The notes beneath the pieces were generated by a model. That model did not search any database, was not told the origin of the DNA, and saw only the letters and a program-made list of their open reading frames with translations. Shown piece after piece: positions 1 through 10,019 of a stretch of DNA of 10,019 nt. Source of the stretch: Silvimonas sp. JCM 19000 (GTDB lineage Bacteria; Pseudomonadota; Gammaproteobacteria; Burkholderiales; Chitinibacteraceae). Location of the stretch: the NCBI GenBank assembly GCA_001313065.1, contig BBFD01000146.1, positions 1 through 10,019 of the forward strand, read 5' to 3'. Position 1 is the stretch's first letter. Each line of letters opens with the position of its first letter. Position numbers and translations under genes: made by a program.

Positions 1-1
1 T

Positions 2-120
2 TTTCGCCAGACGCTGGCGGGCAGCGCCGATGCGCCCCGCCTGGCTTGCGATACAGCGCTCGAAATTGCGCCTTGCTGATCGACGACCGTTTACCGATAA
101 AACTGGGAAAAATCTCGTGA
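2..120 (+). CDS. 3' end of an unidentified upstream gene
   Basis: Only about 40 C-terminal residues are inside the window. The frame starting at base 2 reads FRQTLAGSADAPRLACDTAL and continues to about base 74. One lost base near 73-76 then moves it to a frame ending LLIDDRLPIKLGKIS with TGA at 118-120. Both pieces look like ordinary soluble protein, and together they give one continuous tail, so I read them as a single gene with one deletion error. The stop overlaps the GTG start of the next gene (GTGA), which suggests translational coupling and the same operon. I do not recognise the family from so short a piece. Confidence 0.5.
   Translation, partial: SPDAGGQRRCAPPGLRYSARNCALLIDDRLPIKLGKIS
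105..108 (+). promoter_or_regulatory. Ribosome binding site supporting the GTG start of AT1
   Basis: GGGA lies 8 bases upstream of GTG 117. No comparable site precedes the in-frame ATG at 171, so this supports the GTG, whose codon overlaps the upstream stop. Confidence 0.45.
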
Positions 121-1349
121 ACACCACTGAACTGAAGCCCGACCACAGCCTTAACCCTGTGCTGACCGGCATGGCCGTTTATGCCTCCAAAGCCATTTCC
201 TTGCAGGCCAAAAAATAATCCGGATGTCGCCAATCTGAGTTTTGGTGAGCCCGTATTCGGGCCGCCCGAATATTTGCTGGAGGCCATTGCCAACGAAGAT
301 CTGTCTATCGCGCGTTTCCTCGACGCCGCCAAGCGTTACGAGTCGCCGCGCGGCAGTCTGGCTTTGCGCCAGGCGATCGCGCACTGGTATCTGGAACGCT
401 ACGGCTGGTGCTGGATCCGGAATGCGAAATCATGGTGACGCACGGCGGGGTAGAGGCCATCACCCTGGCCTTGCTGAGCACTACCGCCGCGGGCGAGTCG
501 GTGGCGATCAGCGACCCGTCTACATGCTGTACGCCCGAACCATCCAGACGCTGGAGCGCAAGGTCAAACGCTTGACCCGGCCCGCTGGCGTGCATGAATA
601 CACCGCGATGCTGGCCGACCCGGCCGCACTGGACGGGGTAAAAACCATGATCATCAATTCGCCGGAAAACCCCAGCGGCTACATGCTCAGTGACGAGGAC
701 TGGCAGCAGGTTGCCCACGCCGCAAGTCGCAACGGCACGTGGATCATTCATGACGAAGTCTATGACGCAATGGCTTTTGAACGGCGCCATCGCCCGGCGC
801 GCGCGGTAGAGGGGCTGGCCGATAACGCGATCATCATCAACAGTTTTTTTTCCAAGAAATTTGGTCTGCCCGGCTTACGGATAGGCTGGCTGGTGGCGCC
901 CGCCCGGTGATCGAACAGGCGGCCAAGGCGCATGACTATCTGTACCTGGGCGTCAATATCCAGTACGAGCAAATCGCCACGCGCCTGTTGCGCGATGGTG
1001 CGCGTAGCCCCTGGCTGCAACAGGTGTCGAAAGACATGCGTGACCGCGCCACGGTGGCGCTGTCCACGCTTGGCGCCGAGGCTGGCTTTGCCTGGCCGCG
1101 CAAGCCTTGGGCGCGATGTTCCTGTTTCCGGAGGTCAGCGCAATCTATCGCCGCATGCCGGAGCAGTTTCGTACGCCAGGCCTGCCCGTCGGTGACGCTG
1201 TCGCCCGCTATCTGATGGACGAGGTGGGGGTGGCGGTGGTGCCAGGCTCGGTCTACGGGCCCGCCAGCAATAACCATGTGCGGATGGTCTTGTGCACGCC
1301 GCAGGAAGAATTCGAGCGCGCCTTGCAGCGGCTGGCGGCCCTGCGCTAA
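117..1349 (+). CDS. PLP-dependent class I/II aminotransferase, copy 1 (AT1)
   Basis: Fold-type I aminotransferase of the aspartate/alanine aminotransferase superfamily, cytosolic, expected to move an amino group between an amino acid and a 2-oxo acid; the substrate is unknown. Visible family marks are an N-terminal YASKAIS...LSFGEP substrate-side segment, NSPENPSG (Asn about 181), HDEVYD (Asp 213, Tyr 216), the PLP lysine in SKKFGLPGLRIG (about Lys 247) and a C-terminal carboxylate-binding Arg in HVRMVL (about Arg 390). The repaired length is about 411 residues, normal for the family. Reaching it needs one extra A removed (213-218) and single bases restored near 409, 520, 903 and 1107. An in-frame T8 at 844-851 reads SFFSKK where the paralogues have one residue fewer. 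It starts the module that continues into the dioxygenase. Paralogue of the genes at 3399 and 6807. Confidence 0.88.
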
Positions 1350-1358
1350 AGCCTGGGC

Positions 1359-1370
1359 CCCGACGTCGGG
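1359..1370 (+). repeat. 12-bp perfect palindrome between AT1 and the dioxygenase gene
   Basis: CCCGACGTCGGG lies in the 49-base gap after AT1. Outer bases GG (1356-1357) and CC (1371-1372) can extend the pairing if C1358 is bulged. No T run follows, so it is not a typical Rho-independent terminator. It could be a weak hairpin or a protein site; GC-rich palindromes of this size can also occur by chance. Confidence 0.35.
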
Positions 1371-1389
1371 CCGTCCTCAGCCAGCAGAT

Positions 1390-1393
1390 AAGG
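1390..1393 (+). promoter_or_regulatory. Ribosome binding site of the dioxygenase gene
   Basis: AAGG lies 5 bases before ATG 1399. It marks this ATG as the start even though the reading frame is broken immediately after it. Confidence 0.5.
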
Positions 1394-1398
1394 CAGAC

Positions 1399-2219
1399 AT
1401 GAACAACTCAAAGCACAGTTTCATCAAGCGGGCTACGTGCATCAATCAGCGCAGCAAAGCGGCCTCGACCTGGCACCGTTGCGTGCCGAGCATGACCGCC
1501 TTGAACTGGCGGCGCAGGCCGCTTTGCTCAATCATGCGGCCACTCCGCCCAGCACGCTGATTGCGGTGGCAGAAGCCCGCGACCGGCAGCAGCTGTGCCG
1601 CTTTGAACATATCGCGGGAAGCTCGCCGTTTTTTTTCCGGCACCAGGTGGTGGGCGCGCTGCAAAGCGTGGCCGAGGCGCTGGTGGGCGCGCCGCTGCTG
1701 CTGTTTAAAGACAAATGCAATCTGAAACGACCCGGAGGCGGCGGGTTTGCGCCGCACCAGGATATTACGGCCTACCGCCACTTTGATAGCTCGTTTCATA
1801 TCACGGCCGCACTGATGCTGGAACCCGCCACCGCCCGCAATGGCGCCCTCGAAATGGCCGCGCCCGGTTGGGCGAAGGGGCAGCACGACACACTGATAAA
1901 CACACCACGTGGACGTCTGCCCGTGCTGCCCAGCTATGTGGGTGGGGCCAGAAATGGCGATATCCGGGACGAGTTCGCCGCCACCATGCACTGGAATCTG
2001 CTTGAGGCAGCGCCCGGAGATATTGTGTTCTTCGATTCGTTTGTGCCGCATCGCTCGGCCGAAAACCGCTCGGACCACACCCGCCGCATCCTGTTTTTTA
2101 CCTTCAGCCTGCAGGCGGAGGGCGAGCGCTACGCACCGTATTACCGCGCCAAGCGCGAGCAGCCCGGCCATCCGATGTTCCATGTGTCGACGCCGACTTT
2201 GCACGATGCGCTGACCTGA
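1399..2219 (+). CDS. PhyH-family Fe(II)/2-oxoglutarate-dependent dioxygenase
   Basis: Phytanoyl-CoA dioxygenase (PhyH) family oxygenase that would hydroxylate or oxidise a small metabolite using O2 and 2-oxoglutarate. The iron triad is visible: His 120 and Asp 122 in FAPHQDITAY, and His 218 in FFDSFVPHRSAENRSD, followed by Arg 229/230 in HTRRILFFTF suited to binding 2-oxoglutarate. The start is ATG 1399. A single G lost just after it (ATGGAA read as ATGAA) hides the true N-terminus MEQLKAQFHQAGYV, a typical PhyH opening with an aromatic 'GY' turn. The repaired length is 273 residues, normal for the family. An in-frame T8 at 1629-1636 may be overlong. It lies 51 bases before a PhnW-like gene; PhyH enzymes of the PhnY/TmpA type hydroxylate aminoethylphosphonates in known pathways, which makes a phosphonate substrate plausible but unproven. 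Confidence 0.85.
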
Positions 2220-2222
2220 AGC

Positions 2223-2244
2223 GCAGCGGGTGCGCACCCGCTGC
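2223..2244 (+). repeat. 22-bp perfect palindrome between the dioxygenase and phnW-like genes
   Basis: The half-site GCAGCGGGTGC (2223-2233) is followed directly by its exact reverse complement (2234-2244). As RNA it could fold into a 9-bp stem with a GCGC loop. It begins 4 bases after the dioxygenase stop and ends 26 bases before the next start. No T tract follows, so a classical terminator is unlikely. A processing or stabilising hairpin, or a dimeric regulator site, fits better. Confidence 0.6.
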
Positions 2245-2270
2245 CCCGACCCTTGCCACCCGGAAACCCT

Positions 2271-3411
2271 ATGAGCACTCCTGACCGGCTTTTTTACGCC
2301 CGGCCCTTTGAATACCAGTTCGAGCGTGCGCGCTGCCGCGGCCGCCGATCTGGGCTCAAGGACGCCTGCAGCGATCACATTGACGCAGAATTTGCAGCAC
2401 GCCATAGCCAGGATTGCCGGCCTCGGCGACGCGCACAGCGTGGTGCCCATCCAGGGCAGCGGCACGTTTGCGGTCGAGGCCATGTTGACCAGTTTGCTGG
2501 ACGCGCACAGCCACGTCCTGATCATCGAGAACGGCGTATATAGCGCCCGCATGACAGAGATCTGCCGCATCCACCGCATCTCGCACGAGGTGCTGCGGCT
2601 GGATCCGTATCAGGCGCTCGACCTTGTGCTGGTGGAGCAGCGCCTGCAGCAGAGCGGGCACATCACCCATCTGGCGGCCGTCCATTTTGAAACTGCCCTC
2701 GGCGTGCTGAACGATCTGGAAGGACTGTCGCGCCTGGCCGTACAGCATGGCGCACTGCTGTTGCTGGATGTCATCAGCACCTTTGGCGCCATGGCCTTGA
2801 ATATCGAGCCGCGGCGGATTGCGGGCATGGCCTTGTCGGCCAACAAATGTCTGCATGGTTTGCCGGGTGTGGCCTTTGTGATTGCGCGGACTGACCTGCT
2901 GTTGCAGAACAACGCGCCGCGCTCGCTCAGCCTTGATCTCAAAGCGCAATGGCTGGGTTTGCAGCAAGACGGGCAATGGCGTTTTACGCCGCCGCTGCAA
3001 GTGTTGCTGGCGCTGCAACAAGCAATTCAGGAATACGAGCAACACGGTGGCCAGGCCGCCAGGCTAAAGACCTACGCGCTGCGGGCGGAACATTTGCTGG
3101 CGGGCATGCGGCAAATCGGCTTTGCCCCGGTGATCGCCGCGCAATATCGCGCCCCGATCATCATGACGTTTCAAGCCGCGCCCGGGGTGATGCTGCCCAT
3201 GGACCAGCTCCATGCCTGGCTGGCGCAGCAAGGGCTGCATATCTATCCGACCAGACACGCCAATCCGCATTCGTTTCGGGTGGGGGTGATCGGCGAGTTG
3301 AGCATGCTGGATATCGATGAGCTGGTCGCAGCGCTGGCGCGTTTTGTCGCGCTCGCGGCCACCGAGGGGCGCGAGCCTGATCCGAGGTGCGAAACAGTAT
3401 GCCCACACTAA
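2271..3411 (+). CDS. phnW: PhnW-like class V aminotransferase (2-aminoethylphosphonate:pyruvate aminotransferase family)
   Basis: PLP-dependent class V aminotransferase most like PhnW, which interconverts 2-aminoethylphosphonate plus pyruvate with phosphonoacetaldehyde plus alanine. Family marks in order are TPGPLNTSSSVR near the N-terminus, DLGSR, IQGSGTFAVEAML, ENGVYSARM, VHFETALGVLN, the PLP-holding LDVISTFG, the Schiff-base Lys 192 in SANKCLHGLPG, SRSLSLDL-type RSLSLDLKAQW, WRFTPP and a C-terminal FRVGVIGEL. The start ATG 2271 has GGAA upstream. One extra T in 2290-2295 breaks the frame after eight codons; with five T the read-through gives RLFTPGPLN, the expected opening. The repaired length is 379 residues, close to PhnW with a short polar tail. 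It deviates from remembered PhnW at YPTR (usual YPGK) and GVIGE (usual GNIGE), so the substrate may differ. The 3' end overlaps AT2 by 13 bases. Confidence 0.85.
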
Positions 3412-4653
3412 ACCAGTACTTGCAGCAAGCGCCGGCGCAGTCTTCCAAGGCCATCGCGCAGGCGGCCAAGGCGAATCCGCAGATCCTGAACCTGAGCATA
3501 GGCGAACCGGACTTTGCCTTGCCGCAGCAGGTGCTGGATGCCGTGGCGGCTGAAGATCTGCAGCTTGCACCGCTGTTGCAAGGGCTCAAAGCCTACGAAC
3601 ATTCCTGCGGCGCTTTGACGCTGCGGCGCGCCATCGCAGCGTGGTATGCGCAGCGCTACGGCCTGCAGATTGACCCCGAGCAAGAAATCCTGGTGACCCA
3701 TGGCGGCATGCAGGCGCTGAACGTGGCGCTGCTGTGCGTGACCAATCCTGCGATGAAGTCCAGCTGAGCGATCCTGGCTACACCTTGTACGATCGCGCCA
3801 TTCATTTGATGGGGCGGCGCGTAAGGCGCTATCGCCGGGCGGCGGCGGAACATGAGTTTCTGGACTTCAGCATCGCCGCCTCCAGCCAGGCTGTGCTGCT
3901 TAACTCGCCGGAAAATCCCACTGGTTACGTCAGCAGTGCGCAGATTGGGCGCGGATTCAGAGCGAGGTGGCGCGCGCCGGTTGCTGGCTGGTGCACGACG
4001 AAGTCTATGACACGCTGGCGCTGAGCCGCCCGCACCAGCCGGCATGGGCACATGCGGGCTTGCGCGAGCGCTCGCTCCTGGTCAACAGCTGCTCAAAGAA
4101 GTTCGGGGTGCCAGGCTTGCGCATAGGCTGCTGATCGCCGCGCCAGAAGTGATCGCCTTGGCGGCGCGCGTGCATGAGTCGATGTGTTTGAGCGTAAACC
4201 CGTGGGCGCAACGCATTGCGACGCGGCTGTTGACAGACCCTGGCCTGAGCACCTGGTGCGAGCACAACGCGCAGACATTGCGGGAGCGCAATCTGTACGC
4301 CCTGAATGCGCTCGGGCCCGCCAGCGGTTTCGCCTGGAACCGCACGCCGCGCGGGGGCATGTTTCTGTTTCCCGAGGTCAGTGCGATCTATCAAAACCTG
4401 CCCGCGGCATACGCCGGTTCTGACGTTTCGGCGTCAGACGCGGTGGCGAAATATCTGTTGCAGGCGCACGAAATCGCCGTGGTTCCCGGCGACTTGTATG
4501 GCCAGGCAGGCGCCGGACATATCCGCTTGACCAATTGTGGCGACGGCGCGGTATTTCAGCGCGCTATTTCCCGCATGGCGGAAATACATAAAGCAATCTG
4601 GCGTGATGCCCATCCAGAACCCAAAAAAGGTTTTTTTGCGGAGTCGACAATGA
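3399..4653 (+). CDS. PLP-dependent class I/II aminotransferase, copy 2 (AT2)
   Basis: Second paralogue of the fold-type I aminotransferase, substrate unknown. It shows LSIGEPDF, VTHGGMQAL, NSPENPTG (Asn 169), HDEVYD (Asp 201, Tyr 204), PLP Lys 234 in SKKFGVPGLRIG, FLFPEVSAIY and an Arg 377 carboxylate clamp in HIRLTNC. It lacks the GPPE motif shared by AT1 and AT3 and starts without their YASK segment, so it is the most divergent copy. ATG 3399 is preferred, with GAGG at 3384-3387; GTG 3387 is a possible alternative. Single bases are lost near 3750, 3943 and 4130. As written, no stop separates it from the next gene. Removing one base from the A6/T7 stretch (4623-4637) gives a TGA at 4651-4653 overlapping the next ATG and a protein of 418 residues. 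The exact C-terminus is therefore uncertain. Confidence 0.85.
4640..4643 (+). promoter_or_regulatory. Ribosome binding site of the permuted ATP-grasp gene
   Basis: GGAG lies 6 bases before ATG 4650. A strong site here argues that a separate protein starts at 4650 rather than an AT2-ligase fusion. Confidence 0.55.
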
Positions 4654-6001
4654 CAGAAAAGCTGGATCCCCGTGTGTTTGAAATTGCGGACTGCTGGCTG
4701 CAGGCCACAGGCTATCAGCCTGCTTTTGATGCCTATAACCAGCGCTTGCAACAGATTTTTTAATGGCAAATGGCCGGTATGTTATCCGCCACCGGTATTC
4801 AAGGCTGGTTACGTTGCGCAAATAGGCGATATTGCGCGGCAATTGCTGGAACTGGTGTTTCAGATTCCCGAGCGGATTTTTGCCGGGGATTTGCAGAAAA
4901 TGCTGCAAGCGCAAGGATTGCCGCAATCCCGGGTCGAATATTTTTTTTGCAGGCCGCCTCGCCGCGCCAATTGGGGCGGGCTCGATTACTGGCGCGACCC
5001 GATGCAATTCTGACCGAGCGTGGATTCCAGTTTGTCGAAATGAATGTCACGCCCTCACTCGGCGGCCTCGGCTCCACCAACCGCTGCGCGCGTAGCTTTG
5101 AAAGCGATGCGCTGTATCACGCTATTGCGCAATCAGGCGTGGCGCTGAGCAAGCCGGATATCAATCAGCACTGGGGCGCCATGATGCGCGCGCAATGCCA
5201 GACATGGTCGCCGCAGCGCGCCACTGTTTTGCTGGAGCTGCTGGATAATCCGGCCGAGCAGCCGGAATTGAATTTTGCGTGGCCTGATTTTATCAATATG
5301 GTTAAAGAAAGCGGATTCGAGGTCATTACCGGCAATACCGGCGAATTGACCATCGATGCCAGCGGCGTGTATTGCCGCGGCAAAAAAGGTGGACGTGGTT
5401 TATACCGATTTTGTGTACGCCGAGCAAATGCAATATCAGGTCGATGCGCAAATCATTGCCGATCTGGCCACAGCCGAAGCAAACGGATTAATTGATTTTA
5501 TTGGCTCGCCAGCCGCGTGTGCCATCTATGACAACAAAATCAATCTGCCTTTTTTAAGCAGCCCGCAATATCGCCACTATTTTACGGCGCAGGAAGCGGC
5601 ACTGATTGATCAATATATACCGCCCTCTTTTATTCTCAATAAAGAAACGTTGCCGCTGGCTTTGGCACAACGGCAACGTTTTGTCGTTAAACCCGGGTTG
5701 GGACTATGCGGTTTTGGCGTGGAATTTGGCAAAAAACCATGACGACGCCTCGTGGCAGCGCTTGCTGGAACAATTGGTGGCAGCCGAGGAACCGTATTTG
5801 TTGCAACAGCTGATCGAAGACATCTGGACCTACACGCTGGCGGCGTGGCAAGGCGCAAACCGGATGATCTGCATGGGCTCCATCGTGCTGGATGGTCAAT
5901 ACAGCGGCACTTTTGTGCGGGAAGACTGGTACGACGGCGTGCCGATTGCGGTCAACCTGGCCCAGGGCAGCAGCTTTACGGTCGGCTTTGAGGCGGCATA
6001 A
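4650..6001 (+). CDS. Circularly permuted ATP-grasp ligase-like protein
   Basis: Probable ATP-dependent ligase forming an amide or peptide bond between a carboxylate and an amine. The metal/ATP element E-x-N (Glu 130, Asn 132 in FVEMNVTPSLGGLGSTNR) comes before the lysine and glycine-rich loop (Lys 347 in FVVKPGLGLCGFG) and the adenine-side YLLQQLIED (about 382-390). In standard ATP-grasp enzymes the order is the reverse, so this is a permuted type, like glutathionylspermidine synthase-related proteins; the exact family is not certain. The repaired length is 449 residues. Frame breaks: an extra T in 4756-4761, a lost base near 5000, an extra A in 5382-5387 and an extra A in 5731-5736. An in-frame T8 at 4941-4948 may be overlong. 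A strong GGAG site and ATGA overlap with AT2 suggest coupling. Substrates unknown. Confidence 0.65.
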
Positions 6002-6031
6002 GCCAGCCTTGTTACGCAGCGTTTTTTTTAC

Positions 6032-6035
6032 GGAG
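6032..6035 (+). promoter_or_regulatory. Ribosome binding site of the nucleotidyltransferase gene
   Basis: GGAG lies 8 bases before ATG 6044, fixing the start. The preceding T8 (6022-6029) is probably an inflated run like others in this window. Confidence 0.5.
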
Positions 6036-6043
6036 TTCGCAGC

Positions 6044-6783
6044 ATGTACATCGCTTGTTTAATGGCTGGCATAGGCAGCCGGCTTGCCCCCCTGACCACG
6101 CATTGCCATAAGGCGACGCTGGACGTGGCCGGTCAATCGCTGATCGCGCGGCAACTGGCGCATTTTGCCGCGGCGGGGCTGGCTGACGCCACCTTCGTGC
6201 TGGGCCATGGTGCCGCCGAGCTGGCCGTGCAGATCGCCCATGGTTTTGCCAAACAGCCGTTTCGTCTGATCAATAACCCGCACTACGTCACCCGCAATCT
6301 GGACTGGAGTGCCTGGCTGGCCTTATCGAGCGTGCAAGACGATGTGATTTATTTTGAAGGCGATTTGCTGGTGCCGCCGTCGCTACTGCGCCAACTTGCG
6401 GCCAGCCCGGCGGATATCTGCATCGCGGTTGATTCCTTAAGCCAGAGTCCCTCCATCGACACGGTGGCCTACGCCGCGCAAGGCAAGGTGGCGGCGCTGC
6501 AGTTTGTCGAGCACGGCCGCGCACAACTGCAGCGCGCTGATGGCGCATTGGGCGAGCTGATCTGCACGGTCAAGCTCAGCAATCGCGCCCGCCAGTTTGT
6601 GGTGGATGCGCTGGCGCGGCTGGACTACACCGGGCCGATGCAGCTGTACCAGATTCTGGAGCGCGCCTTTGCCCGCTTTGACACCTCTTATGTGGATGCC
6701 GAGGGCCGCCCGTGGTGGAGATCGATAACGCTGGCGACCTGGCGCGTGCGCGCGATCTGGCTGCCGCCATTGCCGCCGCCTGA
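6044..6783 (+). CDS. MobA/LicC/PntC-like sugar- or alcohol-phosphate nucleotidyltransferase
   Basis: Small cytosolic nucleotidyltransferase of the NTP_transf fold, best matched to CTP:phosphocholine (LicC-type) and phosphonate (PntC-type) cytidylyltransferases. The signature LMAGIGSRLAPLT (residues 6-18) with Lys 23 in HKATLDVAG binds the nucleotide; INNPHYVTRNLDWSAWLAL follows, as in LicC-type enzymes; IYFEGDLLV carries the metal-binding Asp 107; the C-terminal PWVEIDNAGDLARARDL supplies a second acidic metal site. That last part is visible only after restoring one G near 6715 (TGGTGG for TGGGTGG); the literal frame runs past it to a stop at 6791-6793. The repaired length is 246 residues, normal. 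The expected product is a CDP-activated compound, and a CDP-alcohol transferase is encoded one gene downstream, which supports the CTP assignment. The true acceptor (phosphocholine, aminoethylphosphonate or other) is not shown by sequence. Confidence 0.8.
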
Positions 6784-6806
6784 GCGGGACTGATTCTGGA
6801 ATCAAT

Positions 6807-8047
6807 ATGAATGAAGCTGTGATGGCCTTAGGGCCGTATGCCTCCAAGCGCATCTCCGAAGCGGCCAAGCGCGATGCGTCTATCGTCAATCTGAGCATCG
6901 GCGAACCGTTTTTTTTCGGTCCGCCGGAGCCGCTGTTGCAGCAGATCGAAACCGAGGATTTAAGCCTCGCTACTTTTCTGCAGTGCGCCAAATCCTATGA
7001 GACGACGCAGGGATCGCTCGCCTTGCGTCGGGCGATATCGCGTTGGTATTTGCGCCGCTATGGCTGGTGGTGAATCCCGACACCGAAATCCTGGTGACGC
7101 ATGGTGGGGTGGAAGCGCTCACGCTGGCGCTGCTGGCGTGCACAGCGCCGGGCGACCGCGTGGCGCTGACCGATCCGTCTTATATGTTGTATCAGCGTGC
7201 CTTGCTCACGCTGGGCCGGCAGCCGGATGTGTTCCTGCGTCCGCCTGCGTACGACGAATATGCTGCCTTGCTCGGGCAGAACGACGCTTTTGTGCAAGGG
7301 CTGCGCAATGCAGCGGCGCTGATCATCAATTCACCCGAGAATCCAACGGGTTATGTGCTCTCCGAAAATGATTGGCGCCAGGTGATGGCACACGCGGATG
7401 AGGCAAAACCTGGGTGATCCATGACGAGGTGTACGACAGCATGACGTTCGGGCGTGCGCATTTTTCGGCGCGACGCTTTGACCGCAGCGGCAAACGTCAC
7501 ATCCTGCTCAACAGCATGTCGAAAAAAATTCGGTGTACCCGGCTTACGCATCGGCTGGATGGTGGCGTGCCCGGAAGTGATCGAAGCGGCGGGCAAAGTG
7601 CATGACTACCTGGTGCTGGCGGTGAACGCGCAATACGAACGCATCGCGACGCGGATACTCGATTACCCGCAAATTGACGCCTGGTTAAGCCAGCAAACCG
7701 AGCTGATTGCAAAGCGCTCGCAGGCGGTGCAAAGCACGCTGACCGCAGCGCGCGGATTTGCATGGACCCGCAAGCCCATGGGCGGCATGTTTGCCTTTCC
7801 CCAGGTGGCCGCGCTGGCCAACAGTTTGCCCGCCAGCGCGCGCGCGGCCAGCGCCGGAGAAGATGTGGCCACGTTTCTGTTGCAGCAAGCCCGGGTGGCG
7901 ACCGTGCCTGGCGCGGTGTATGGGCAGCAAGGGCAGGACCACCTGCGCATGGTGCTATCGGCGCCGCCTGCGGCGTTTGATGCGGCGCTGCAGCGCCTGA
8001 GCGCTTTACCCACGCTACAGTTGGCGGCGAGGACGTCATATGCCTAG
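6807..8047 (+). CDS. PLP-dependent class I/II aminotransferase, copy 3 (AT3)
   Basis: Third paralogue, closest by eye to AT1 (shared PYASK/VYASK opening, GPPE, SDPSYMLY/TDPSYMLY, MVL near the C-terminus). It carries VTHGGVEALTLALL, NSPENPTG (Asn 175), HDEVYD (Asp 207, Tyr 210), PLP Lys 240 in SKKFGVPGLRIG, KPMGGMFAFPQV and Arg 381 in HLRMVL. Start ATG 6807 with TGGA upstream. Frame repairs: a lost G near 7067 (the same GGG to GG change as in AT1 at the same codon), a lost base at 7404-7408 and an extra A in 7522-7528. The T8 at 6909-6916 adds one in-frame Phe relative to AT1 (EPFFFGPPE against EPVFGPPE), probably run inflation. The repaired length is 413 residues. The stop overlaps the next start by 8 bases. 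Substrate unknown. Confidence 0.88.
8029..8033 (+). promoter_or_regulatory. Ribosome binding site of the CDP-alcohol transferase gene
   Basis: GAGGA lies 6 bases before ATG 8040, inside the end of AT3. It fixes the start and supports coupled translation. Confidence 0.55.
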
Positions 8048-8659
8048 CCCCAGCAAATCCTGGTTGATGCCGGGCGCCTATATGGACGGCGCCAACAATG
8101 TAACCGGGCTTAATGTCTTGCTCGGCGTGGCTGCGCTTTATCTGGCCCTGCATCAACAAACCCGGTTTGCGCTGGGCATGGTTTATATCACTGCCATTCT
8201 GGACCACCTGGATGGTTATCTGGCGCGACGCTATTTCTTTAAAGATCAAACCCGGCGCGCATTTGGCAAACAGCTGGATACGCTGGCGGATCTGGTCAAT
8301 TTCAATATCGTGCCTGCCTTGTGCCTGACGCTGTTGCTGGATGGCTATGGCGCCTGGCTGGTCGCATCGGCGCTGGTGTTATGTGGCTGCGTGCGGCTGG
8401 CGCATTTCAATATCACATCCGATGGCGCTGGCCATTGCAGTACCGGCTTGCCGACCACCAATGCAGGTTTTCTGATTGCCAATTTGTTAATGCTGTTTGT
8501 TGCTGGCCATTGTCCGGCAGGGCTAGTGCTGGCGCTCTCCGCCTGATTGCGCTGGCGCAAATCGTGATGTTGCAGATCAGGCTGCCCGCCACGGCCATGA
8601 GCGTGGCGCTGTTTTCATTTGTTTTCTTTTTCCAATCTGGCGTTTTGCAGCCTTTATAA
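8040..8659 (+). CDS. CDP-alcohol phosphatidyltransferase, PssA-like integral membrane enzyme
   Basis: Inner-membrane enzyme of the CDP-OH_P family, which moves a phospho-group from a CDP-linked donor to an alcohol with release of CMP. The signature runs D55-H-L-D58-G59-x2-A62-R63, then 12 residues, G76-x3-D80-x3-D84; all catalytic acidic residues are present. RRAFGKQLDTLADLVNF and the later VRLAHFN and STGLPTT segments resemble phosphatidylserine synthase (PssA). Several hydrophobic segments (about 20-37, 90-115, 148-165, 170-200) fit a multi-pass protein. The spacing between AR and G is 12 where the textbook motif has 8. One C lost near 8542 breaks the frame; the repaired protein is 206 residues ending at TAA 8659. 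It likely uses the CDP-compound made by the nucleotidyltransferase at 6044, either as head-group donor or with CDP-diacylglycerol as donor. Confidence 0.85.
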
Positions 8660-8688
8660 ATAACGCCGACACTAAAAAAGAGCACCTT

Positions 8689-9987
8689 ATGGCACATGTG
8701 GTTTTTTTCTTGATAGCACGGCAATCGGGCTGAATGCGTTTCGCTCGGCCAAAAAAAATGGGGCATCGCGTGACACTGGTCAAGCCGACCCGCTCCACCA
8801 GCTTTATTGATCTGATGGCCAAAGATCCGGCACGTCTGGCGCCCCATCTCGCGTTTACCGATCACTATCTGTTGGTGGATGACCTGGAAAAGCACAACGT
8901 CAGCCAGCTATTACGCCGCCTGGCCGAGGTGGACCCGATCGACGCAATTATCAGTACCGCCGAAACCGGCATTGTGCCGGCGTCGATTGCAGCGGAAGAA
9001 TTCGGCACGCTTTATCCCTCGGCTGAGGCGTTGCGCGCCGCGGTTTTCAAAAAACGAATTGCGCGCCACCCTGGCCGCTCACGGCATCCGCTCGCCAGAA
9101 TTTGAAGTCCTGACCGAAGCAGATTTATTGCAGGGCCCGCGCAAAATCAAATTGCCGTTTGTGGTCAAGCCGGTGCGCGGCTTTGCCAAACAGTTTTCCG
9201 CCATTTGCCGAACCCAGGCCGACTTTGAGCAATATGTATTGGCATTGCAGCAGAGCCGTGAGAAATCGGACGCCATCGATCAGATCATCAGTCACGAATA
9301 TATTGTTGAAGAATACGTAAGCGGCATGCTGCATTCCGCGGAAACCATCGTGCGCGACGGCCGGGTGATGTGTTACGCCACCACCTCGCGCTATCGGGCC
9401 CATTATTACGATTTGCTCGAGCTGGCCGCCGTGATGCCATCCGGCTTGGCCGACGCAAAAAAAAGCGGAAATTAACCAGTATTTGCAGACGGTATTTTCT
9501 GCATTGGGCATACAGATCGGCCTCTACCACGTTGAGCTGCTGATGACCGAGACGGGGCCGGTATTGGTGGAAATAAATGCGCGCATGATGGGCAGCGTCT
9601 CGCCGGTCATGTATCAGATGCTGACGGGTCAGGATGCCTATGAGCACCTGGTCCGCCTGCATCTGGGCGAGCCGGTGGAAGTGAATGATGCGGGCTTTGC
9701 CGCCGCTGGCATTACGCTTGCCGTTGCGGCGCGCCATGGCGGGCGCATTGCGGCCACGTTTGAACAAGGGCAGTTGCAGGCACTGCTTGATCAATACGGC
9801 ATTACGTTTAATACGCTGGCCATCGAGGCGGGCAAGCAGATCGACAAATACGAAGCAATCTCAGCATCATGGGGCACGTGATCTGCACTGCCGAAACGCC
9901 GGAAGCAGTGGCACACAAGGCCCACCGCTTTTTTTGTGCGAGCTGGATCCGCTGATCGGGCTGGAGACGGCCAAGTACTTTGCCTGA
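8689..9987 (+). CDS. ATP-grasp ligase, amino-acid ligase-like
   Basis: Canonical ATP-grasp enzyme of the carbamoyl-phosphate-synthase-like/L-amino-acid ligase type, expected to form an acyl-phosphate and join it to an amine. Order of elements: a Rossmann-like preATP-grasp domain opening MAHVVFLDSTAIGLNAFRSA; FVVKPVRGFAKQ with Lys 159; YIVEEYVSGMLHSAET (about 205); LVEINARMMGSVSP with metal ligands Glu 293 and Asn 295; and a C-terminal lid region ending LIGLETAKYFA. The repaired length is 430 residues, normal for BacD-like ligases. Six frame breaks: T7 at 8702-8708, A8 at 8751-8758, A6 at 9049-9054, A8 at 9457-9464, a lost base near 9862 and T7 at 9929-9935. The start ATG 8689 has only a weak AGAG upstream. 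As last gene of the run it could add an amino acid to the product; substrates are not visible. Confidence 0.78.
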
Positions 9988-10019
9988 ACGCGCACAAGGC
10001 CCCGCGCCACACACCGTGG

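Follow-up and report, generated by a model that had tools for sequence, protein, structure and literature searches.

What does a bacterium make with three aminotransferase-like enzymes, an oxygenase, a cytidylyltransferase, a head-group transferase and two amino-acid ligases, all encoded in a single run of DNA? The question is raised by a contig of Silvimonas sp. JCM 19000, a soil bacterium (BBFD01000146.1, positions 1 to 10,019 of the forward strand; this whole stretch of 10,019 nucleotides is called the window here). A preliminary description made from the letters alone guessed at a phosphonate- or phosphoamino-alcohol-containing product. Our analysis suggests that the window is probably the downstream part of a biosynthetic operon for a phosphonate, dependent on phosphoenolpyruvate mutase (PepM), and that the locus, judged by its linkage to PepM, very probably makes a compound with a carbon–phosphorus bond. 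In order, we call the nine genes AT1, PhyH, PhnW-like, AT2, ligase 1, NTase (nucleotidyltransferase), AT3, CDP-OH_P (CDP-alcohol phosphatidyltransferase) and ligase 2; their coordinates are given in Table 1.

Linkage to PepM

The decisive evidence for a phosphonate comes from outside the window. A search with the phosphoenolpyruvate mutase of Chimaeribacter identified a PepM protein in the same strain (P0129, JCM19000A_12620). It carries the sequence EDKLFPKVNS, which matches the PepM motif EDKx5NS (PMC6697681), as do 120 of the 120 PepM matches listed, the best 120 of 5,941. The proteins that match at 100% are the PhyH (JCM19000A_12650) and NTase (JCM19000A_12690) of this strain, whose genus belongs to Chitinibacteraceae. 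Their genes have three others between them, so that the tags fit a step of one gene per ten, and all three proteins are assigned to contigs sized 220,926. The numbering therefore places pepM two genes ahead of AT1, a position that follows from locus tags and equal contig size and not from contiguous DNA. Together with the pepM genes of three related loci, this linkage strongly supports the phosphonate guess. When equal contig size is used as a wider proxy for linkage, there are 11 PhyH–PepM pairs, Silvimonas included (79 PhyH matches against the 52 PepM matches entered of the 120 listed), and among 38 NTase matches there are 5 NTase–PhyH and 4 NTase–PepM pairs, Silvimonas being one in each.

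Related loci

Three loci from other species show the wider setting of these genes. In Chimaeribacter californicus (L002) the order is PepM, a remnant of ppd (the gene for phosphonopyruvate decarboxylase, Ppd), PhnW-like, FemAB/GNAT-like, EamA-like, AT2, ligase 1, NTase, AT3, CDP-OH_P, ligase 2 and an MFS-like gene; the EamA-like call is below its cut-off, and the MFS-like call and that of a TetR-like gene were made by eye. The six genes from AT2 to ligase 2 are thus ordered as in the window, with PepM and PhnW-like upstream. Between PepM and PhnW-like lies a deletion scar (3940-4260), in which an 86-codon start of ppd (3940-4198) gives way to the 3' end of PhyH (from 4217). The deletion removed the rest of ppd, anything that stood between and most of PhyH, but spared PepM and the genes further downstream. 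The ancestral order would therefore have been PepM-Ppd-...-PhyH-PhnW, as it is on a plasmid of Azospirillum thermophilum (L001). That plasmid encodes PepM, aepY (Ppd; the gene between PepM and AT1), AT1, PhyH, PhnW-like, GNAT, EamA-like (below cut-off) and AT2. Its annotation runs PhyH together with part of the PhnW-like gene as a single coding sequence (14103-16105), and PepM has no gene in the table. A separate 2553-base contig, in which about 105 N-terminal PepM residues are joined to PhyH (P0065), was considered as a fusion enzyme and rejected, as it is without the EDKx5NS motif; it is possibly an independent deletion joint. In L002 a gene before PepM (1699-2388) is weakly similar to Haem_oxygenas_2 (35 bits; cut-off 29).

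Winslowiella iniecta (L016, 3460-16435) has a second type of cluster, fuller than the window. It comprises PepM, a GntC-like enzyme dependent on pyridoxal phosphate (PLP), PhyH, PhnW-like, a second class V enzyme, an OlsC/LpxO-like hydroxylase, NTase, CDP-OH_P, a short-chain dehydrogenase (by eye), HisN/inositol-phosphatase-like and formyltransferase-like genes, Ppd and ATP-grasps. The PhyH–PhnW and NTase–CDP-OH_P pairs are common to this cluster and the window. In all three loci PepM, Ppd and PhyH, whole or reduced to a remnant, stand together with a PhnW-like enzyme and with either one or two class I PLP enzymes, Ppd being present in Azospirillum and Winslowiella and a remnant in Chimaeribacter; the PLP enzymes are present in the window too. 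In three species, Silvimonas, Chimaeribacter and Winslowiella, pepM and phnW accompany NTase.

In the genomes sampled, these genes are rare. Two overlapping draws, centres included, gave NTase at E<=1e-40 in 2 of 392 genomes and in 2 of 394, and in a set of 398 genomes Chimaeribacter itself was the one source of ligase 1 at E<=1e-10. A scan of genome contigs with the single NTase sequence gave no relative, whereas an NTase alignment gave two loci. The NTase protein (P0001) matched four plasmid records at 28-32% identity, while the L002 NTase gene, searched as DNA, matched no plasmid, and a piece of PhnW found no relative among viral contigs. A PhyH profile found nothing at E<=1e-45 in 398 genomes of the phylum, a draw without a known intact positive, so that this result shows little.

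Predicted enzymes for activation, transfer and amide formation

The family calls for AT1, AT2, PhyH, the PhnW type, NTase and CDP-OH_P are borne out by Pfam and NCBIfam models run on ten pieces of the window; AT3, which was not among these pieces, is recovered by tblastn. The idea that the operon combines CTP activation with head-group transfer gains support from the family and signature tests of NTase and CDP-OH_P. NTase matches PF12804 (30 bits; cut-off 27), and its N-terminal signature residues Arg13 and Lys23 are conserved in 25 of 25 and 23 of 25 aligned sequences, respectively (exceptions to the latter, P0027 and P0029). The window protein thus has both features of the PntC family, PF12804 and the conserved Arg/Lys. 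The best solved structure for its profile is LicC (1jyk, 1.6e-11), and PntC-AEPT also matches (6pd1, 1e-6). CDP-OH_P matches PF01066 (57 bits; cut-off 22). CDP-alcohol phosphotransferases have the signature DxxDGxxAR...GxxxDxxxD; the window has DHLDGYLAR...GKQLDTLAD, and the signature is also intact in L002 and L016. Its profile is nearest to PssA structures (7pow, 7b1k), and for the L002 protein PssA comes second to archaetidylserine synthase.

PhyH matches PF05721 (62 bits; cut-off 22), and the same-strain protein (P0039) is 99.6% identical to the window by tblastn. Residues H119, D121, H217 and R228, an HxD...H...R pattern, are invariant in 13 aligned sequences including P0039, and the pattern is found in 61 of 80 PhyH hits. 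The PhnW-like enzyme passes one of three PhnW models, NF010006 (334.8 bits; cut-off 296), and most of it can be aligned to 7e7g and 1m32. Its K191 and D165, which we take to be the catalytic lysine and aspartate, are invariant in four aligned sequences.

Two ATP-grasp ligases had been proposed, a view that holds for ligase 2 and needs qualification for ligase 1. Two central pieces of ligase 2 are 74% and 68% identical to the protein of L002:12675-13970 (tblastn), which matches PF13535 (69.7 bits; cut-off 27) and an L-amino acid ligase structure (3vot, E=2e-16); a window piece matches an ATP-grasp N-terminal model just below its cut-off (23.6 bits; cut-off 27). Four pieces of ligase 1 are 36-50% identical to L002:8554-9951 (tblastn). 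Two window pieces have no Pfam match, and the intact Chimaeribacter relative is likewise below every Pfam cut-off (PF14403 at 15.9 bits; cut-off 32). A Streptomyces relative matches both Pfam models of circularly permuted ATP-grasps, but falls short of each (PF14403 at 19.5 bits, cut-off 32; PF04174 at 19.3 bits, cut-off 23.1). A joint profile matches 3n6x, a putative glutathionylspermidine synthase (E=6.3e-6). In the intact L002 ligase 1 an ExN motif (residue 144) comes ahead of the lysine motif (residue 360), whereas ligase 2 has them in the opposite order (158 and 292); this order is read from the two L002 ligases, the only 2 of the 5 proteins given that matched the ExN pattern. LETN stands at the same aligned place in the Streptomyces relative. 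On this evidence ligase 1 resembles an ATP-grasp that has diverged and become circularly permuted. The Streptomyces gene itself, on a plasmid of Streptomyces angustmyceticus (L020:8000-13272), has 7-deazaguanine genes and an ATP-grasp of the L-amino-acid-ligase type nearby, and no PepM is annotated in that stretch.

The class I PLP enzymes appear to be one family, an assignment drawn from intact relatives as the three window copies are too broken for whole comparison. Ten pairs among five intact copies share 43-58% identity at 349-469 bits; the best solved structure for one copy scores 134 bits, in a different program. In the window, AT1 matches PF00155 on the piece 572-907 (E=3.3e-20) and four compared pieces are 58-72% identical to the Azospirillum AT1. 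AT2 matches PF00155 on two pieces, with four pieces 47-58% identical to the Chimaeribacter AT2. Two pieces of AT3 are 53% and 49% identical to the Chimaeribacter AT3 (tblastn); the label rests on position, because some pieces score as well or better against the Azospirillum AT1. A clean orthology of AT1, AT2 and AT3 across species fails, the Azospirillum AT1 being 57% identical to its own AT2 and 51% to the Winslowiella copy. Three intact relatives score 217, 202.5 and 222.4 bits against the GntC model (guanitoxin cyclodehydratase), short of its cut-off of 415.

Proposed pathway and alternatives

From these assignments a route can be proposed. PepM would form phosphonopyruvate, and the product of the gene tagged 12630, which synteny suggests is the decarboxylase, would convert it to phosphonoacetaldehyde. 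The PhnW-like enzyme would aminate this to 2-aminoethylphosphonate (AEP), and PhyH would hydroxylate the phosphonate, perhaps to 1-hydroxy-AEP (HAEP), which is a guess; HAEP is reported from the lipids of Bdellovibrio stolpii, and genomic data have led to the proposal that other bacteria have it too (PMC8154272). NTase would then couple the (hydroxy)aminophosphonate to CMP, much as PntC makes CMP-AEP (PMC6697681), and a membrane CDP-OH_P enzyme would form a phosphonate ester by passing the phosphonate on from CMP to an acceptor with a hydroxyl group. Both ATP-grasp-type ligases would attach amino acids through amide bonds, and the three related class I PLP enzymes may act on amino-acid or amino-phosphonate intermediates. 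Phosphonate peptide pathways include ATP-grasp enzymes and phosphonopyruvate aminotransferases (PMC12723261).

Several results weigh against this scheme. The decarboxylase is not seen in Silvimonas itself, where only the last ~116 bases of the upstream gene fall within the window; these gave no NCBIfam match in three frames and no tblastn match to the Azospirillum Ppd. The PhnW-like enzyme misses both TIGR03301 (351.4 bits against 360.8; E=6.6e-105) and TIGR02326 (314.4 against 400.8). No relative of NTase or ligase 1 was found on the Azospirillum plasmid, and CDP-OH_P and a second ligase, neither of which was searched for, are not annotated beside its core, in a table that is incomplete, so that activation and transfer may not be part of every member of the cluster. 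The cluster genes can also separate, because two further loci, L003 (8781-10687) and L006 (283-2187), hold only a pair of PhnW-like (by eye) and shortened NTase genes, with no PepM seen by eye around the pair in the stretches read. The pair in these two loci is possibly a decayed remnant. In L003 a gene resembling the Haem_oxygenas_2-like one of L002 and a TetR-like gene precede the pair (by eye).

The product may be a secreted small molecule, a lipid, a glycan or a peptide. Of an exported small molecule and a membrane head group, we favour the former, since L002 carries FemAB-like, EamA-like (below cut-off) and MFS-like (by eye) genes. The most specific form of this idea is a new class of secreted phosphonate, in which a CMP-activated (hydroxy)aminophosphonate would be transferred as an ester to a small hydroxy acceptor and aminoacylated by the paired circularly permuted and canonical ATP-grasp enzymes, with three duplicated PLP enzymes acting on successive intermediates; so detailed a proposal is speculative and rather unlikely to hold as a whole. 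A phosphonolipid, in which CDP-OH_P would transfer CMP-(hydroxy)AEP to diacylglycerol and the ATP-grasp enzymes would aminoacylate the amino head group, is a serious if unlikely contender. It would fit the closeness of CDP-OH_P to PssA, the HAEP of B. stolpii lipids (PMC8154272) and the capture of activated AEP by carbohydrate or lipid that Rice et al. presume (PMC6697681), but the MFS-like and TetR-like (by eye) and EamA-like (below cut-off) genes of L002 point to small-molecule export, and the window shows no further lipid gene.

Two explanations would dispense with phosphonate synthesis altogether. LicC is the best structural match to the NTase profile, and databases name some NTase relatives 'phosphocholine cytidylyltransferase' or 'choline kinase', as would be expected if NTase and CDP-OH_P carried out phosphocholine- or phosphoethanolamine-type tailoring without a carbon–phosphorus bond and the PepM linkage were incidental. 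Such tailoring is highly improbable, given that PntC is itself related to LicC (PMC6697681) and that pepM and phnW accompany NTase in Silvimonas, L002 and L016. We judge it very improbable, and reject, that PhyH and PhnW degrade AEP in a catabolic operon: PepM lies upstream, NTase and CDP-OH_P lie within the operon, and no PhnX, PhnA or PhnZ family is among the matches of the ten pieces scanned. This is so even though PhnW can work in both directions (PMC8154272) and the only NCBIfam match of PhyH at E<=0.01 is methylphosphonate hydroxylase (NF052437; 107 bits, below the cut-off of 500). A PepM-dependent biosynthetic operon thus remains the reading that we prefer.

Gene layout and sequence quality

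The preliminary description of a compact, co-directional operon is confirmed: Pfam and NCBIfam matches and tblastn with relatives' proteins, which locates all nine genes including AT3 and both ligases, agree with its order and coordinates. All nine lie on the + strand, and neighbours abut or overlap in an operon-like manner; AT2, for example, starts at ~3399 within the PhnW-like frame ending at 3411. The window has a G+C content of 60%, and scans for Rfam families and tRNAs gave no match.

Table 1. Genes of the Silvimonas window, with positions in the window and the basis of each assignment
Feature	Positions	Strand	Basis
3' end of upstream gene, tag 12630 by numbering	1..116	+	phosphonopyruvate decarboxylase (Ppd) expected from synteny
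AT1, class I/II PLP enzyme, GntC-like, five frame breaks (our count)	117..1349	+	PF00155
PhyH-family Fe(II)/2-oxoglutarate oxygenase, frame break near start	1399..2219	+	PF05721
PhnW-like class V aminotransferase, frame break near start	2271..3411	+	NCBIfam, PDB 7e7g/1m32
AT2, class I/II PLP enzyme, three or more frame breaks, end approximate	3399..4625	+	PF00155
Ligase 1, circularly permuted ATP-grasp-like, 3-4 frame breaks	4650..6001	+	tblastn, profile search
NTase, NTP_transf_3, PntC/LicC-like, final ~25 codons out of frame, end approximate	6044..6784	+	PF12804
AT3, class I/II PLP enzyme, roughly three frame breaks	6807..8042	+	tblastn; label by position
CDP-OH_P, PssA-like, last part out of frame	8040..8659	+	PF01066
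Ligase 2, putative ATP-grasp amino-acid ligase, LAL-like (L-amino-acid ligase), 4-6 frame breaks	8689..9987	+	tblastn, PF13535 in relative

Across the window we counted 22 to 25 reading-frame breaks, which were left unmended in the analysis. None of AT1-3 and the two ligases is a single open frame, each being split into four to seven pieces. We read the breaks as sequencing errors because the strain's own NCBI proteins are intact for PhyH (P0039) and NTase (P0001). Some breaks adjoin stretches of T or A that are six to eight bases long, which look like homopolymer error; eight-base runs of T or A occur at 844, 1629, 4941, 6022, 6909, 8751 and 9457, some of them near frame breaks.

Comparison with known phosphonate clusters

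The view that the gene set fits no nameable pathway stands in part: the toolkit of PepM, Ppd, PhnW, NTase and CDP-OH_P is known, but this exact pathway was not found described. Much of the toolkit is listed for pgb of Pantoea ananatis (PMC9933511, PMC7858074), which has pepM, aepY (Ppd), phnW, an aspartate aminotransferase, the NTase-type spsI1/spsI2, a CDP-alcohol phosphatidyltransferase and an MFS transporter in a single cluster (PMC9933511). By its published gene list, however, pgb has asnB, asd, glyA, fabG and cpdA of its own, and that list includes neither PhyH nor ATP-grasp (PMC9933511); the locus is said to resemble a phosphonoglycan locus (PMC7858074). The phosphonyl tailoring by PntC described by Rice et al. 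(2019, PMC6697681) likewise involves PepM, an AEP transaminase, for which the window locus has the PhnW-like enzyme, and a PF12804 cytidylyltransferase. The neighbourhoods given there contain LicD-like phosphotransferases or glycosyltransferases (PMC6697681), whereas Silvimonas has CDP-OH_P, PhyH, three class I PLP enzymes and two ligases; the terms 'CDP-alcohol' and 'ATP-grasp' occur 0 times in the main text of that paper.

Flavophos (PMC12871164) and pantaphos/HiVir (PMC9933511) also have PepM-dependent clusters in Proteobacteria, and HiVir lists ATP-grasp and GNAT. Both of these compounds are routed via 2-phosphonomethylmalate (PMC12871164), and neither the assigned genes of the window nor those of the L002 stretch that runs from PepM to ligase 2 include a Pmm-synthase-like gene. 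Flavophos was considered since its source, Burkholderia mayonis, holds a PhyH relative, and was rejected as its listed genes differ (PMC12871164). Halophos, from Pantoea stewartii subsp. indologenes and P. allii, is described as a pepM cluster too; no locus of Pantoea is listed among the genome contigs that matched the NTase alignment, which is weak evidence on whether Halophos belongs here. Our literature search found no paper joining Silvimonas with phosphonate, and none joining phosphonate, Serratia plymuthica and phosphoenolpyruvate mutase.

Antibiotics and herbicides are found among the phosphonates, and the tailoring that follows formation of the carbon–phosphorus bond has been called enigmatic (PMC6697681). 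With a PntC-like NTase, a PssA-like transferase, PhyH and two kinds of ligase in one operon, the Silvimonas locus offers a small test system in which such tailoring could be assayed enzyme by enzyme, step by step. The related PLP enzymes and the putative circularly permuted ligase, in turn, point to chemistry that we did not find assigned in the literature examined.

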